Assembly: GCF_018986435.1 (NCBI RefSeq)
Contig: NZ_JAHMIN010000026.1
Coordinates: forward strand, 1-64,000
Source of the DNA: Hahella sp. HN01
GTDB lineage: Bacteria > Pseudomonadota > Gammaproteobacteria > Pseudomonadales > Oleiphilaceae
DNA length: 64,000 nucleotides
Direction of reading: 5' to 3'
The position numbers and the translations under genes were made by a program. Of this stretch, positions 44,627 to 52,225 are shown one piece after another. The notes under the pieces were generated by a model that was not told the origin of the DNA, searched no databases, and saw only the letters and a program-made list of their open reading frames with translations. How positions within the stretch are numbered: the stretch's first letter is position 1; each line of letters opens with the position of its first letter.

Positions 44627-45898
44627 TTAGTCGCTGTTCAGGGGTTTCTCCAGGTCAATGACATACAGGGTGTTGGCGTCTACGCGCCCTGTAGCTGGTA
44701 TTATTTTTTGCGCTACATTCCCATTCTGCTCAGCCACCGCGAAATCATCGTCATTGATCACCGCCACTTTGTTGGCATCCATAATCCACAACCCTTCCAG
44801 CTTATCGTGCGGATAATTCATCTGCGCCAGCAAGTCGACCACCAGGGTCTTGCGCACGGGTTGCACGCCCGCCGCCGCAAGCTCGTCCCAGCTTAGCTCC
44901 TCCAACGCCTTACCATTGATTTGCATGCCGGTCTGCGAATCAAAGTCTCCGCTGACGTCCGTCGCCCCACGCAGATCAATTTTATATAAACGCTTATATT
45001 TGGCTTTTTCACCCGCGAACCCGCCGTCCCTTTCCACCATCAGAAACTCATCTTTGGAAATCGCGGCGATTTCCGAGTTGGACAGGTTGTCCGCTTCCTG
45101 ACGATACAGATACTGATGGGCCTCACCTGTCGCAATATCCAACGTCAGAATGCGCGTCAGGGTTTTATTCTTCACCGCTTTTTTAGAGGGATTGAACAGC
45201 GTGGATTGCATGACGCCTACAAGACGTTGCTCATCCGGCGTAATCGCCAGTCCTTCCATGCCGCGATTAGGTCTTCGATTGGCGAACACTTTCGGCAGTT
45301 TACGACCGCCCGTCCCTGTTCCGAACGGATTAAGACGCTCCAGCTCATAGCCTGCAGAAGAGTAATGCACGATATGGGGGCCATATTCATCGCTCACCCA
45401 AAAGCCCCCATCCTTGAGCGCTGCGATACCCTCAGGATCAAGTCCGTAGGGATCGAAACCCAGTACGCGACCAGCGTAATCATAAGGCGTTTCCCCCGTC
45501 GCCCCCATGCCTTCCGGGTTAGGCAGCCCCGTAATAGGCTCACCGCCGGGCGCATGCAGGGTCAGCGTGCGTGCAATTCGCAGCTCGCCATTGCCGAGGC
45601 GCTCCACTTCAGCGATACGTGGCGAGTAACCTGGCACAGGGAACTTTTTACCTTTCCCCTCTGGCCCATCAAAGTCCACATTGGGACCACGATCCGTCAA
45701 GACATAGAAATGGTTGGGTTTAAGGGGGTGTCCCGTCATGGCGGAGCCAAATCCGCCATTGCGTACTTCCACGCCATTATCCAGTTTCTTTATTACCGAA
45801 TAGGCGAGCGCGCCGACCAGTTCTTCCTGCGCTGACGCGGTGGCGACAATAGCGCTCAAACAGAACGTAAATGCGCCCTTACTGAGAAATGTTCGCAT
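44627..45898 (-). CDS. Secreted phytase-like esterase domain protein
   Basis: A 423-residue periplasmic or secreted protein: signal peptide RTFLSKGAFTFCLSAIVATA, then a beta-propeller-like phytase-type esterase domain (GGFGSAMTGHPLKPNHFYVL, TDRGPNVDF, PNPEGMGATGETPYDY, DGGFWVSDEYGPHIV, GMEGLAITPDEQRL). The family is calcium-dependent in the propeller phytases, but many members have no known substrate. It is divergent from the di-heme cytochrome genes with about 260 bases between. Function beyond the fold is uncertain. Confidence 0.82.
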   Translation of the reverse strand: MRTFLSKGAFTFCLSAIVATASAQEELVGALAYSVIKKLDNGVEVRNGGFGSAMTGHPLKPNHFYVLTDRGPNVDFDGPEGKGKKFPVPGYSPRIAEVERLGNGELRIARTLTLHAPGGEPITGLPNPEGMGATGETPYDYAGRVLGFDPYGLDPEGIAALKDGGFWVSDEYGPHIVHYSSAGYELERLNPFGTGTGGRKLPKVFANRRPNRGMEGLAITPDEQRLVGVMQSTLFNPSKKAVKNKTLTRILTLDIATGEAHQYLYRQEADNLSNSEIAAISKDEFLMVERDGGFAGEKAKYKRLYKIDLRGATDVSGDFDSQTGMQINGKALEELSWDELAAAGVQPVRKTLVVDLLAQMNYPHDKLEGLWIMDANKVAVINDDDFAVAEQNGNVAQKIIPATGRVDANTLYVIDLEKPLNSD

Positions 45899-46161: not shown

Positions 46162-47916
46162 ATGCTTTGCTGTTCATTCGGCCGCGGTTTACTGCGCGCC
46201 TTGCCCAGACATTCCTTATTACGCGGCGACGCCAAATCGCCACTCTCCAGTTCTCCCACTCTGCGTGCGCGGCGCTTGGTTCTGGCGGTATGCGCGCCGG
46301 CGTTGCTACTCAGCGTCGCCGCCTGCCGGCAGACTGAGGAGGCCACGGACACAACGCCAGATGCGCCTAATACAGGTAGGCCAGAGGTGGTTCATTTGCA
46401 ACAAGGCTGGTCCAACGCCACCCGGGACCAGGCTCAGTTCGCCTCTTTCGGTTCGCGCATCGTTCCCTATGACTGGCTTCTACATCTGGAACAGGCGGAT
46501 AACGCAGCGCCGTTCCTGGCCGCTGCGCATATGGATGAACTGGGATTCCTGAGCGCGCCGGCGTCCGAACACAACCCTGACGCACTGCCTGTAGGCTTCG
46601 CCAAAGATGTGGACGCCAACGGAGTCGCCTGGGCGGGATTGGGATGCGCCGCCTGCCATACGGCGGAAGTGCGTTATCAGGGAAAAAGCATCCGTATTGA
46701 CGGCGGCTCAGCGCTGATCAACTACAGCGGCCTGGAATTCGCTATTCGCGACAGCATACAAGCGACGCTGGCGCAACCCGAGAAATTCTCCCGCTTCGCA
46801 AAAGCGTTATCAGCCGAATCAGAAGCACAACTGAAAGCAGCCCTACAGCAGCGCCTGGACTATTTCTCAGAGCGTTTCGCCATGAACAGCACCGAGGTCC
46901 CCTACGGTCGCGGAAGGCTGGATGCATTCGGGCAGATCTTTAACGTGGTCACCTCTGAAATCACTCATCAACCGGAAAACCGCCGCTCGCCCGATGCGCC
47001 AGTAAGCTTTCCCGTACTCTGGGGCACTCCACGCATGGATCTGGTGCAATGGAACGGCTCCGCCAGCAACGCCGCTCCAGGACCATTGGCGCAAAACGTG
47101 ACTACCGCGTTAGCGGTATATGGCGCAGCGACTGTAGATGGCCACAGCGAACTGCCCGGTTATCCCAGCAGCGTCAATTTCGGCAATCTGGGCGATATTC
47201 AAAAGCGCAATGAAGCCCTGCTGGCGCCGAAGTGGCCGGAATCGATTCTTGGCAAGTTGGATACGCAGCGAGTAGAGCAAGGGCGCAGTCTATACGCGGA
47301 ACGCTGTCTCTCCTGCCATACGCTGACGGACCACAACGCGCCTGACGCGAAGATCAATGTCGCTCTGACGCCGCTTGATGAAGTCGGCACCGACCCGAAA
47401 ATGGCCATGAATTTCCTGCTCGCCAGCGCACAAAGCGGACCTTATCAGGGACGAAAGCTGATGGTATTCGGCGGCGCGGCGCTCGGAGCGACGGAGCCCA
47501 GCATCAAGCTGGTCATTCACGCCGCCATCGGGGCCATCGTGCGTCATCCCATCGCCGCCACTCTGGATGTCGCGGAAGCCTCACATCCCAGCGGCAAACC
47601 CAGCGCGACGGCGATCCCACGCTATTACAAAGGGCGCCCGCTGGATGGCGTCTGGTCGTCCGCTCCCTATCTGCATAACGGCTCCGTTCCCAACCTGCAA
47701 TCACTGCTGTCGCCGCCGGAACAACGCCCGCAAACATTCTATGTCGGCGATCGTGAGTTCGATCCCGTTAAGGTTGGCGCCAGCACACAACAGGTTCCCG
47801 GCGCGACGCTGTTCGACACGCGTCTGCCCGGAAACAGCAATGCAGGGCACGTATTTGGCGTGGATCTGAGCGCTGACGAAAAGCAGGCGCTGCTCGAATA
47901 TCTGAAATCTCTATAA
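46162..47916 (+). CDS. RoxA-like di-heme cytochrome c, predicted lipoprotein
   Basis: A 584-residue protein. After a basic start comes a hydrophobic segment with a lipobox (LLSVAAC, cysteine near residue 55), so it is probably a lipid-anchored periplasmic protein. Two haem c motifs are visible: CAACH (162-166) and CLSCH (382-386). Late in the sequence comes the MauG/RoxA-type block RPLDGVWSSAPYLHNGSVPNL, with LPGNSNAGHVFG near the end. RoxA proteins are rubber dioxygenases, while most relatives are annotated as di-heme peroxidases; the substrate here is unknown. It is followed by a second member of the family. Confidence 0.82.
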   Translation: MLCCSFGRGLLRALPRHSLLRGDAKSPLSSSPTLRARRLVLAVCAPALLLSVAACRQTEEATDTTPDAPNTGRPEVVHLQQGWSNATRDQAQFASFGSRIVPYDWLLHLEQADNAAPFLAAAHMDELGFLSAPASEHNPDALPVGFAKDVDANGVAWAGLGCAACHTAEVRYQGKSIRIDGGSALINYSGLEFAIRDSIQATLAQPEKFSRFAKALSAESEAQLKAALQQRLDYFSERFAMNSTEVPYGRGRLDAFGQIFNVVTSEITHQPENRRSPDAPVSFPVLWGTPRMDLVQWNGSASNAAPGPLAQNVTTALAVYGAATVDGHSELPGYPSSVNFGNLGDIQKRNEALLAPKWPESILGKLDTQRVEQGRSLYAERCLSCHTLTDHNAPDAKINVALTPLDEVGTDPKMAMNFLLASAQSGPYQGRKLMVFGGAALGATEPSIKLVIHAAIGAIVRHPIAATLDVAEASHPSGKPSATAIPRYYKGRPLDGVWSSAPYLHNGSVPNLQSLLSPPEQRPQTFYVGDREFDPVKVGASTQQVPGATLFDTRLPGNSNAGHVFGVDLSADEKQALLEYLKSL

Positions 47917-47955
47917 CAACGCAATAAGAACGAAATAGGTGCGAAAGGAAAGGAT

Positions 47956-50274
47956 ATGACCTCCAAGGGAAGTATGAAGTTTGTCCAGCAAAAACGCAGC
48001 GCGCCGCTGCGACTGATCAAATGGCTAACGCTCGCCGTTATCGTATTGGTCGTCGCCGCATGCGCCGGGTTCGCCTGGTTTGTGCTGTATCCCAATAACA
48101 GCCTGCCGGCAGCGGAGCCTGTCGATAAATATGTGTATCTGGATCAGGGCTGGGATGGGGACAACGCGTCCTTGCGGGAACTTTACTATTACACTCCGCA
48201 GGGGGTTTCCATGCCCCAGGGCGCATCCGCTGGGGCGGTGCGCTATAACTGGTTCATACACTTGGAGGAGCCATTCAGCGAACAACGTCTGGCGGACCCG
48301 GAACGCATGCGACTTTTCCGCTTTGTCGTCGACCCTGTTCCCAGCGCGGCCAACCCTGATCAACTTCCGTTGGGCTTCAGCAAACACCTTGATCCAGCAA
48401 TCGGCGAGGAAGTACTGGATGTCTCCTGCGCCGCCTGCCATAGCGGCGAACTGCACTATCAACGCGATGGCGTCCGTTATGCCGTGCGCGTCGATGGCGG
48501 TCCCGCCATGCACGCGCTCACCAGCATGGAGCGCGGCGCGTTTGCGCCGACTTTGGTGGCCTCTCTGTTTTATACCGCCGTCAATCCCTGGAAATTCGAC
48601 CGCTTTGCGCAGAAAGTGCTGAGCGATCGCTACCCGGAAGGCAAAGATGAGCTGCGCTCCGCCTTGTGGAGCAGTGTCGGCGGGTTTGTCGGCGCAGGCC
48701 AGAACAACCCTCTGCGTAAACTCTACCCGGTGAATGAAGGCTACGGCCGCACCGACGCCCTGGGCCGCATCGGCAATACACTGTTCGGCGACCACCTGAG
48801 CGCGTCCAACTATCAAGTCGGCGCAGCGCCAGTCAGCTATCCCTACCTGTGGGATATCTGGAAATTCAACTGGGTGCAGTATAACGGCTCGGTGGCGCAG
48901 CCTCTGGCGCGCAATATTGGCGAGGCGCTTGGCGTCGGCGCGCGCATTGATCTGGTCAACGCCGACGGCTCCCCCGTCCCTCCCGGCGAGCGCTTCCACA
49001 GCGCCGTGCGTATCGAAGATCTCGCCCGTATCGAAAGCGCATTGCAAACGCTCAAGGCGCCCACCTGGCCGGAAGAAGTATTCGGTCCCGTGGATCAAGA
49101 CCTCGCCGCCCAGGGCGAAGGATTGTTCCGACGCTATTGCCAGGGTTGTCATGGTCCTCATGAAGCCAATGTCGCCGATCTGGAGATCAATGCGCCCCTG
49201 AAACCCGCTCCCTGGTCGGAATGGATGATTTCCGTAGCGCCGCTCAGTGTGGTCGGCACCGATCCCAGCGCCGCCCAGGCCTTTATCGACAAGCACTATG
49301 ACCTGTCAGCGACCGGATTGAGCAATCAGGATATCGACGACGCTTTACGCCCTTTGTTTACGCAACGCCTGATCCGTGAGGTGCGCGCCGGACTGAGACA
49401 GATCATCGCACTGCGCCAGGAGCGGGAGTTGCCTCTTGGCGACCTGCCGGAGCTGCTGGCGGCTTACCCCGCCAACGACGTCGTTCCCGTCGTCGCGCCG
49501 ATTGGCGATTTCTCCGCTATTGCCGCAGCGCTTAACAGTCTGTCCACACAAGAAGATAGCGCTTCCTCGAAAACGTCCTATCGTCCCCATTACGTGGAAA
49601 GCTGCGACTTGCTCTGCCTTAACGGGAAATTGTTAAGACTCACCCAACAGGGAACCAAAGACATCGACAACCTGCTGGCGAAGCAGGACATCCACAGACT
49701 GTCGGAAGGTTTGGCGCTAAATCTCATTGGCGTCCTGGTGAAAAACCGTTACTACGCCGACAACAATATCGACTATGCGCAGCGCCAATGCCTGGAAGGC
49801 TTCGGCACGCTTGACCTGCCGCAGGAAGTCGCAGGTTATAAGCCACGCCCTCTGGCGGGAGTCTGGGCGACGCCGCCCTTCCTGCACAACGGCTCGGTGC
49901 CAAATCTCTATCAGCTGTTATCGCCGCCCGAGCAGCGGGAAAGCCGTTTTCAGGTGGGCTACAGAGATTTCGATCCCCAACGCGTCGGCTTCGTTTCACA
50001 GCCGCCACAGGGCGCAGACGCCAACGGCTTTTGGTTCGACACCCGTTTGCCCGGCAACAGCAACAGCGGTCACGCGTTCTCCGCCTCCGTGACGGATTGG
50101 CGCGCGTTCCTGCGGGACTCGGAGGCGAATCCGCTGCCCAAAGGCGTCATCGGCCCCATGCTCACGGAGAAGCAGCGCATGGCGATTATCGAGTATCTGA
50201 AAGTGCATCGTGATGCGCCGGAAACGCCTCTGGAATTCAGGCCTCCCGGATGCGCGACAGCCTCGGCAAACTGA
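47956..50274 (+). CDS. RoxA-like di-heme cytochrome c, membrane-anchored
   Basis: A 772-residue protein with an N-terminal transmembrane anchor (LIKWLTLAVIVLVVAACAGF), haem motifs CAACH (158-162) and CQGCH (394-398), and the diagnostic RPLAGVWATPPFLHNGSVPN and LPGNSNSGHAF blocks. It has an extra region of about 190 residues compared with the preceding gene, including a CDLLCLNGK cysteine pair. The tandem placement 39 bases downstream suggests one operon. Electron transfer between the two, or a shared oxidative substrate, is an inference. Confidence 0.82.
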   Translation: MTSKGSMKFVQQKRSAPLRLIKWLTLAVIVLVVAACAGFAWFVLYPNNSLPAAEPVDKYVYLDQGWDGDNASLRELYYYTPQGVSMPQGASAGAVRYNWFIHLEEPFSEQRLADPERMRLFRFVVDPVPSAANPDQLPLGFSKHLDPAIGEEVLDVSCAACHSGELHYQRDGVRYAVRVDGGPAMHALTSMERGAFAPTLVASLFYTAVNPWKFDRFAQKVLSDRYPEGKDELRSALWSSVGGFVGAGQNNPLRKLYPVNEGYGRTDALGRIGNTLFGDHLSASNYQVGAAPVSYPYLWDIWKFNWVQYNGSVAQPLARNIGEALGVGARIDLVNADGSPVPPGERFHSAVRIEDLARIESALQTLKAPTWPEEVFGPVDQDLAAQGEGLFRRYCQGCHGPHEANVADLEINAPLKPAPWSEWMISVAPLSVVGTDPSAAQAFIDKHYDLSATGLSNQDIDDALRPLFTQRLIREVRAGLRQIIALRQERELPLGDLPELLAAYPANDVVPVVAPIGDFSAIAAALNSLSTQEDSASSKTSYRPHYVESCDLLCLNGKLLRLTQQGTKDIDNLLAKQDIHRLSEGLALNLIGVLVKNRYYADNNIDYAQRQCLEGFGTLDLPQEVAGYKPRPLAGVWATPPFLHNGSVPNLYQLLSPPEQRESRFQVGYRDFDPQRVGFVSQPPQGADANGFWFDTRLPGNSNSGHAFSASVTDWRAFLRDSEANPLPKGVIGPMLTEKQRMAIIEYLKVHRDAPETPLEFRPPGCATASAN

Positions 50275-50482: not shown

Positions 50483-52225
50483 ATGCCTCGCCATAGCTAT
50501 ACGCTAGCTTGCTTAGTGTTTGTGTTGCTTTTTGCCCGAAGTTTGGAGGCGGCCGATGGCGTGCCTCCGTTCAACGTGGACAAAGGCCTCGACATGGCAG
50601 GGCTGACGCCGCATCTGGCGTTGCTGGAGGACCCATCGCAATCCCTGCGCTTTGAAGAAGTCAGCTCCCCTGAATTCGCCGACCGCTTTAAATCCACGGG
50701 AGGCCAATCCCCTAATTTCGGCTTTTCAGAATCCGCCTGGTGGGTCAAATTCACGCTGCATAACACCACTGCGGAAGAGTTAGCGGTCACGTTACGCCAG
50801 GACTATCCTCTGATCGATCACCTGACGCTTTGGGAGCCACTGGCTGACGGTTCCTGGAAACGCCACGCCACAGGCGACCGCCTCTCTTTCTACTCCAGAG
50901 ACGTCGAGCACCGCGACTACTTATTTCCTCTGAAGCTGCCAGCCAATGCGTCCTACACCTACTACATGCGCTTCAGCAGCGACGGCTCCATGAACATCGG
51001 CCTGTCCCTGTATGCGCCAGATGCTCTGCTGGAACATATCGGCAAGGAGCAACTCGCCTACGGCGCTTACTACGGCGGCTTCCTGGTCCTCGTTATCTAT
51101 AATTTTTTCATGTTTATCGCGGTTCGCGACCGCACTTTCGCTCACTATCTGCTGTACGTCACCAGTTATGGCCTGTATATGGCGGTGCATAACGGACTGA
51201 CGTTCCAGTTTTTGTGGCCGAATTTTCCCTGGTTCGCCAATCACAGCCTGTTGATCCTGCTGATTCTTTCCTTGCTGGGAGCGTTACAGTTCGCCCGCTC
51301 GATTCTGGTGACGCAGCAAATTGCGCCCCGAACCGACTTCGCCGCCAGAGTGTTGGAGTGGCTGATGCTGATCAGCCTGGCCTGTACGCCGTTCTTTACC
51401 TACCACACGATGATCGTGCCGATATCCCTGCTGACCTTCGTCATCGCCGCCCAATTACTGTTGATGGGCGTACTGGCGTTAATGGCGGGATCGCGCCCTG
51501 CGCGCTATTACATGACCGCCTGGACGGCGCTGTTGATCGGCGTGCTGGCCTACATGCTGAAAACCTTTGGCCTGCTGCCCCATAACGTGCTGACCCAGAA
51601 CGGCTTTCAGATCGGCTCACTGACGGAAATGGTGTTGCTGTCTCTGGCGCTGAGTAGCCGGGTCAACGAACTGCAGCGTAAAACCTACACGGACGCCCTG
51701 ACCGGCCTGTTCAACCGCCGCCATTTCGATGACAAGTTCGCAACGGAATTTCATCGCGCTCAACAAAGCAAACAGCCGCTGACTCTGCTGGTCATCGATA
51801 TCGACTGCTTCAAGCAGTTCAACGACACTTACGGCCACAACGTCGGCGACCATGCGTTGAAGGAGGTCGCCCGCATACTGGCGAAAGGCGTACGTAAGCC
51901 GAACTGTCCCTGCCGTTACGGCGGCGAAGAGTTCGCTGTCATCCTGCCCAATACCGACCACGAAGCCGCCATGAGCCTGGCCAATCGCCTCAGAGTCAAA
52001 GTGGCGGAAGAAACCGAGTCTGGCTACAAGCTATCCATCAGCGTTGGTGTGGCGAGTATGAATCACGATGAATTCGACTGCCCCAACAAACTGTTCGAAC
52101 GCGCGGACTACGCGCTGTACACGGCGAAACAGCAGGGCCGCAACAGAGTGGTGGATTATCGCTCCTGCGCCCCGCGCCGGGAGTCGGATACATCGAAAGA
52201 AGGTCTGGTGGGCGCTGAGAGCTGA
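50483..52225 (+). CDS. 7TMR-DISM diguanylate cyclase
   Basis: A 580-residue protein: signal-like N-terminus, a periplasmic 7TMR-DISM extracellular domain (WWVKFTLHNTTAEELAV, then ASYTYYMRFSSDGSMNIGL), seven membrane helices (residues about 190-395) and a GGDEF domain with TDALTGLFNRRHFD and the active-site motif RYGGEEFAVIL. The cyclase makes c-di-GMP. The residue that should complete the product-inhibition RxxD site reads RKPN, so feedback inhibition is probably absent. It lies about 210 bases after the cytochromes, with its own upstream region. Confidence 0.9.
   Translation: MPRHSYTLACLVFVLLFARSLEAADGVPPFNVDKGLDMAGLTPHLALLEDPSQSLRFEEVSSPEFADRFKSTGGQSPNFGFSESAWWVKFTLHNTTAEELAVTLRQDYPLIDHLTLWEPLADGSWKRHATGDRLSFYSRDVEHRDYLFPLKLPANASYTYYMRFSSDGSMNIGLSLYAPDALLEHIGKEQLAYGAYYGGFLVLVIYNFFMFIAVRDRTFAHYLLYVTSYGLYMAVHNGLTFQFLWPNFPWFANHSLLILLILSLLGALQFARSILVTQQIAPRTDFAARVLEWLMLISLACTPFFTYHTMIVPISLLTFVIAAQLLLMGVLALMAGSRPARYYMTAWTALLIGVLAYMLKTFGLLPHNVLTQNGFQIGSLTEMVLLSLALSSRVNELQRKTYTDALTGLFNRRHFDDKFATEFHRAQQSKQPLTLLVIDIDCFKQFNDTYGHNVGDHALKEVARILAKGVRKPNCPCRYGGEEFAVILPNTDHEAAMSLANRLRVKVAEETESGYKLSISVGVASMNHDEFDCPNKLFERADYALYTAKQQGRNRVVDYRSCAPRRESDTSKEGLVGAES

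Follow-up and report, generated by a model that had tools for sequence, protein, structure and literature searches.

Two unlike RoxA-fold di-heme proteins encoded side by side in Hahella sp. HN01, a candidate lipid-oxygenation pair beside a diguanylate cyclase

In Pseudomonas aeruginosa, two RoxA-like di-heme proteins encoded in tandem, PA2078 and PA2077 (the FadCcp pair), convert oleic acid to 10-hydro(pero)xy-octadecenoic acid (10-H(P)OME) and 7,10-dihydroxy-octadecenoic acid (7,10-DiHOME) (PMC4496055), with PA2077 acting as the oleate 10S-dioxygenase and PA2078 as the 7,10-diol synthase. The oxylipins of this species are quorum signals that inhibit flagellar motility and promote biofilm formation (PMC5155153, PMC6377657). 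Here we analyse two neighbouring open reading frames, ORF1 and ORF2, in a 64,000-nucleotide stretch of the genome of Hahella sp. HN01 (assembly GCF_018986435.1, contig NZ_JAHMIN010000026.1, positions 1 to 64,000; hereafter the window), which a first-pass annotation had described as tandem RoxA-like di-heme cytochromes with different membrane anchors, suggested to act on a polymer other than rubber or on a hydrophobic substrate at the cell surface. We give about an even chance to the proposal that the two proteins form a two-enzyme periplasmic lipid-oxygenation module, whose chemistry we infer from characterised relatives.

The window pair resembles FadCcp in that both belong to the NCBI family NF040606, both consist of two adjacent di-heme RoxA-like genes with periplasmic export (predicted here for the window proteins), and in both one partner keeps the Trp between the hemes and the other has lost it; in each pair, too, just one of the two proteins has a predicted membrane helix. 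The two systems differ in that PA2077 and PA2078 are close mutual paralogues whereas ORF1 and ORF2 belong to two deep clades, and in that PA2077 and PA2078 keep an equivalent of RoxA F317 (F269/F260) while ORF1 and ORF2 do not; moreover, FadCcp is regulated by OdsR, which is of the LysR type rather than a 7TM cyclase, and a patatin has not been reported for FadCcp. An orthologous FadCcp-type operon was found in genome G794 (G794:C1:3319014-3322829; 1 of the 25 sampled species of that genus), recognised by its heme spacing (245/235), its GSHFNLPHD motif and the pattern QW..KF / QS..VF at the W302/F317 positions (PMC4496055), and its dioxygenase and diol synthase score 529 and 488 bits on NF040606. 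Because FadCcp orthologues thus fall in the same family, the idea of a hydrophobic substrate has a characterised precedent in unsaturated fatty acids and oxylipin signals. Our search of the literature for a link between di-heme proteins, patatins and oleate returned the FadCcp paper as its sole relevant result.

The rubber-oxygenase group offers a second comparison. RoxA, RoxB and RoxC share with ORF1 and ORF2 the fold, two c-type hemes, the MauG motif and a C-terminal His ligand, and for the RoxC proteins, which are lipoproteins, a role with fatty acids has been proposed; a 2024 review independently suggests fatty-acid oxidation for them (PMC10837239). Unlike this group, the window proteins score below the Rox cut-offs, form a separate clade and have no F317 equivalent, and ORF2 carries an insert with a CxxxC motif. 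With ordinary di-heme peroxidases the window proteins have in common the core fold and the Trp...Glu region, but they are much larger and match them less well in structure, ORF1 being without the Glu and ORF2 without the Trp.

Family, fold and active-site residues

The description of two RoxA-like di-heme proteins of 584 and 772 residues holds: the coordinates are exact, each protein has two CXXCH motifs and one LHNGSVP block (Table 1), and each matches PF21419 (RoxA-like_Cyt-c; 61.7 bits for ORF1 and 58.5 bits for ORF2, cut-off 26.7). Both are members of NF040606, "di-heme-cytochrome C peroxidase", at 546 bits (ORF1) and 470 bits (ORF2) against a curated cut-off of 150. On the NCBIfam equivalog models for RoxA, RoxB and RoxC, by contrast, they reached 38–65 bits against cut-offs of 900–1000. 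The top structural match of the AlphaFold models (pLDDT, the predicted local distance difference test, 85) was RoxA (ORF1: Z 17.8, 391 residues aligned; ORF2: Z 15.7, 400 residues aligned), compared with Z 10–11 over ~220–240 residues for ordinary di-heme peroxidases and MauG (best rows Z 10.5 for ORF1 and 11.3 for ORF2); for neither protein was the ~35–40 kDa peroxidase core the best match. Profile–profile comparison with the Rox proteins gave an alignment of 385 columns (E 1e-38) that starts shortly before heme 1 and runs to the end, and H641, the C-terminal axial His ligand in RoxA, aligned with H563 of ORF1 and H706 of ORF2, so both proteins have the RoxA-type set of two CXXCH motifs, MauG motif and C-terminal axial His. 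By analogy with RoxA, heme 1 of ORF1 would be the catalytic heme. The first-pass annotation had held that placement among ordinary di-heme peroxidases would undo its reading; structure and profiles side with RoxA instead, despite the NCBI name.

The active-site residues differ between the partners. We defined the Trp and Glu columns by alignment to one ordinary di-heme peroxidase, and in the wider family this alignment finds the inter-heme Trp followed mostly by a conserved Glu; PA2077-like proteins have both residues and PA2078-like proteins have neither. ORF1 keeps the Trp and has Thr in the Glu column, and ORF2 has Tyr in place of the Trp and keeps the Glu (E323; Glu in 11 of 11 orthologues). 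Trp and Glu together, as in ordinary bacterial cytochrome c peroxidases (bCcP) and MauG, are therefore found in neither window protein, each partner being without one of the two.

Different anchoring was also borne out by prediction: ORF1 has a VAAC lipobox with C55 as the lipidation Cys (missing in the Marinobacterium orthologue), and ORF2 has an N-terminal membrane helix at about residues 16–48. The periplasmic face fits these proteins better than the cell surface to which they had been assigned. The CDLLC sequence noticed earlier in the ORF2 insert is a CxxxC; this helical insert gave only weak helical-bundle matches when the whole-protein model was compared with known structures. We rejected it as a third heme site because the residue after it is Leu, not His, and because the CxxxC is conserved together with two further Cys (C550 in 11/11, C554 in 10/11, C612 in 11/11 and C766 in 11/11 orthologues); these Cys could form disulfides or bind metal.

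Ratios of nonsynonymous to synonymous substitution rates (dN/dS) in same-genus comparisons were 0.09–0.12 for ORF1 and 0.05–0.08 for ORF2, and these low values indicate that both are maintained proteins. In one Hahella genome (G006; L071:4698-7013) the ORF2 orthologue is split into two frames, with one in-frame TGA counted, which reflects either an assembly error or real decay.

Co-inheritance of the pair and its neighbouring cyclase

In trees of 186 and 108 proteins, ORF1 and ORF2 fell in two deep clades (support 99 and 100) that cover one and the same set of 11 genomes, namely six of the seven sampled Hahella species, Marinobacterium nitratireducens, two Dokdonella, one gammaproteobacterial metagenome-assembled genome (MAG) and genome G727. 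Both are separated from the Rox clade with strong support. The approximately unbiased (AU) test rejected a single clade of ORF1 and ORF2 (p 1e-58) as well as the grouping of the FadCcp pair with ORF1 (p 6e-7) or with ORF2 (p 3e-4). The word "tandem" is thus right for position, the genes lying 39 bp apart on the same strand, and wrong for origin, since recent tandem duplication is rejected; by the AU results the two unlike enzymes are old partners and distinct from the PA2077/PA2078 pair. The distance matrices of the two proteins are correlated (Mantel r 0.96), a value dominated by close species pairs. Because we took the named loci in order of their similarity to ORF1 and covered only part of the RoxA-like matches from the order search, ORF2 without ORF1 may exist.

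Downstream of the pair lies a NicD-type diguanylate cyclase (Table 1) with DISMED2, 7TM and GGDEF domains and an intact GGEEF motif. Across lineages its orthologues are 50–57% identical to the window copy over its length, and its best paralogue in the window's genome, among 69 matches, is 30% identical. The cyclase orthologue of G727 is present but away from the pair. In G003, the same-genus genome without the pair, no cyclase was found at E 1e-60, and just three remote homologues (<30% identity) turned up at 126 other family loci. The architecture is that of P. aeruginosa NicD, which senses nutrients such as glutamate; nicD is not known to be linked to di-heme genes.

In 7 of the 11 loci the gene directly 3′ of ORF2, usually overlapping it, encodes a patatin-like protein for which several membrane helices are predicted; its Pfam patatin scores are borderline (21–33 bits, cut-off 27.7). 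One way to account for both neighbours is that they were inherited with the pair as a mobile genomic block and are linked to it by that history, not by function. We regard this as possible though doubtful. Marinobacterium groups with G004 and G006 in both enzyme trees, which suggests that the whole block has moved between lineages, yet the cyclase is still adjacent in Dokdonella and the gammaproteobacterial MAG, where gene order and orientation differ from the other loci, and purifying selection on ORF1, ORF2 and the cyclase is strong.

Table 1. Coordinates of the di-heme pair, its motifs and its neighbours in the window
Feature	Position	Strand	Remarks
Phytase-like esterase-domain protein	44627-45898	-	just upstream, divergent from the pair
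ORF1	46162..47916	+	584 aa di-heme protein, NF040606 family, predicted lipoprotein
ORF1 heme-1 motif CAACH (residues 162-166)	46645..46659	+	
ORF1 W297 (inter-heme Trp)	47050..47052	+	equivalent to RoxA W302 / PA2077 W251; conserved in 11/11 orthologues
ORF1 T315 at the conserved peroxidase Glu column	47104..47106	+	Thr in 11/11 orthologues and 5/5 sister sequences
ORF1 heme-2 motif CLSCH (residues 382-386)	47305..47319	+	
ORF1 LHNGSVP block (MauG motif)	47671..47691	+	
ORF2	47956..50274	+	772 aa di-heme protein, NF040606 family, N-terminal membrane anchor, helical insert
ORF2 heme-1 motif CAACH (residues 158-162)	48427..48441	+	
ORF2 Y309 replacing the inter-heme Trp	48880..48882	+	Tyr in 11/11 orthologues
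ORF2 heme-2 motif CQGCH (residues 395-399)	49138..49152	+	
ORF2 helical insert (residues ~437-620)	49264..49815	+	CxxxC (C550, C554) and C612
ORF2 LHNGSVP block (MauG motif)	49882..49902	+	
7TMR-DISMED2 / 7TM / GGDEF protein, NicD-type diguanylate cyclase	50483..52225	+	orthologue adjoins the pair in 10/11 loci

Lipid oxygenation weighed against other explanations

The joint occurrence of the enzyme pair, the cyclase and often a phospholipase suggests a lipid-oxidation signalling locus rather than rubber-type degradation. The earlier proposal of a non-rubber hydrophobic substrate survives as likely through the PA2077/PA2078-type relatives, which oxygenate unsaturated fatty acids in the periplasm; its polymer half finds no support. 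We propose that ORF1 and ORF2 form a conserved two-enzyme system of RoxA-fold di-heme oxygenases of the NF040606 type at the periplasmic face of the envelope, where one probably acts after the other on unsaturated fatty acids or another kind of unsaturated lipid. The lipoprotein ORF1, with its Trp kept and its Glu replaced by Thr, would be the likelier of the two to catalyse the O2-using dioxygenase step, and ORF2, with its inner-membrane anchor, its Tyr in place of Trp, its retained Glu and its own insert, would be the better candidate for processing the hydroperoxide, a division of labour resembling that of P. aeruginosa PA2077/PA2078. We hold this order of steps less firmly than lipid oxygenation itself.

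In most lineages the patatin-like phospholipase could free the fatty acids; the window's subgroup, in which the patatin gene is lost, would draw on free or exogenous lipids. The 7TMR-DISM cyclase is probably linked in function and may read the product or the lipid state out as cyclic diguanylate (c-di-GMP), a read-out that is plausible because the link between pair and cyclase is steady; the P. aeruginosa oxylipin effects on motility, biofilm and quorum behaviour are of the sort under c-di-GMP control. If lipid oxygenation is right, oxylipin-type chemistry on the RoxA fold would be recurrent, not an oddity of P. aeruginosa, with different enzyme pairs assembled independently and one of them linked through its neighbouring genes with a c-di-GMP receptor-enzyme. 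This cyclase would then be a definite candidate for a receptor of oxylipins beyond Pseudomonas; within Pseudomonas, oxylipin receptors besides OdsR are still unidentified (PMC6377657). The NCBI label "di-heme cytochrome c peroxidase" would also seem misleading for some members, at least, of this widespread family.

A more ambitious version, which we consider unlikely, would be a self-contained cassette in which a phospholipase supplies unsaturated fatty acids to two non-orthologous di-heme oxygenases, these make a periplasmic oxylipin, and the oxylipin acts through the 7TMR-DISM receptor-cyclase on c-di-GMP. Such a cassette would be the second system for oxylipin signalling in bacteria, coupled to c-di-GMP and separate in evolutionary origin from the Pseudomonas oxylipin-dependent quorum sensing (ODS) system.

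Several observations weigh against the lipid-oxygenation proposal. None of the proteins in the ORF1 and ORF2 clades has a known substrate or activity, and by the AU tests the two proteins are not orthologous to PA2077/PA2078. In both ORFs the loop equivalent to that of F317, a residue essential in RoxA, is shortened, with no Phe at the aligned position by our alignment, so we cannot equate the chemistry of the pair with that of RoxA or FadCcp. The patatin had no match in the window or elsewhere in the window's genome. The cyclase occurs at 46–50% identity, unlinked, in four pair-less genomes of the order sample (382 genomes), all of family f16 and with a related locus of a di-heme and a catalase-like gene elsewhere, so we rejected the notion that it is exclusive to the pair. 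Finally, the DISMED2 domain of NicD has been reported to bind small nutrients, not lipids.

Among accounts of the chemistry itself, the strongest competitor is that the two proteins are periplasmic di-heme peroxidases that remove H2O2 or lipid hydroperoxides with electrons from the respiratory chain, which we think rather improbable. The NCBI family name fits it, as do the catalase-like genes that adjoin wider-family di-heme genes at 26 loci (24 of them within 500 bp) and the Glu that ORF2, like many relatives, aligns with the Glu of ordinary peroxidases. However, ORF1 is without that Glu in all 11 orthologues and ORF2 is without the inter-heme Trp, the structures are much nearer RoxA than ordinary peroxidases, the characterised family members are a fatty-acid oxygenase and isomerase, and a phospholipase partner would be unexpected for H2O2 removal. 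Lower still we place the idea that the pair, like MauG, MbnH or BthA, modifies residues of a partner protein and not a small molecule: the MauG motif is common to both groups and the cores are similar (Z ~9–11), but the MbnH-family score was 11 bits versus 363, and beside the pair we saw no conserved small gene for a substrate protein, the conserved neighbours being the lipase-like protein and the cyclase. Cleavage of polyisoprene, or of an unsaturated polymer or terpenoid like it, is the least credible account, for although the RoxA fold, the PF21419 match and a pairing reminiscent of RoxA/RoxB synergy recall it, a rubber-oxygenase identity is rejected by the Rox model scores and the strongly supported separation from the Rox clade, the F317 equivalent is absent, and even the closer RoxC proteins showed no activity on rubber (PMC10837239).

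Observations in the wider family

The phytase-like gene upstream of the pair was considered as a further part of the lipid-oxygenation module and rejected, as its cluster comprises three loci, all from the window's subgroup. The window's genome also contains a third, solitary NF040606 paralogue (G000:C62:14088-15725; L072:8876-10732), which shares a clade with proteins of Nitrosomonas, Thiotrichaceae and a cyanobacterium; close to the position equivalent to F317 it carries a Phe (GPFDFGAL).

The pairing of a di-heme gene with a catalase-like gene is conserved, mostly in Pseudomonas (for example L132, L147, L160, L166, L253, L085 and L086). At eight loci (L076, L079, L083, L118, L129, L131, L133 and L140), from Nitrosomonas and other proteobacteria, a P450 gene lies beside a wider-family member, always within 500 bp, and at L076 and L131 it stands between two di-heme genes; these neighbours recall the fungal dioxygenase–P450 diol synthases. 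A separate pair of RoxA-like genes (~490–600 aa), whose members fall in parallel clades, was found at L081:8019-11007, L082:3069-6368 and L230 and represents an independent two-gene assembly. The order search further recovered four genomes (G588, G668, G608 and G648) with 5–10 RoxA-like genes each, clustered on the chromosome, many of which encode a third, N-terminal CXXCH and in this resemble the RoxC group.

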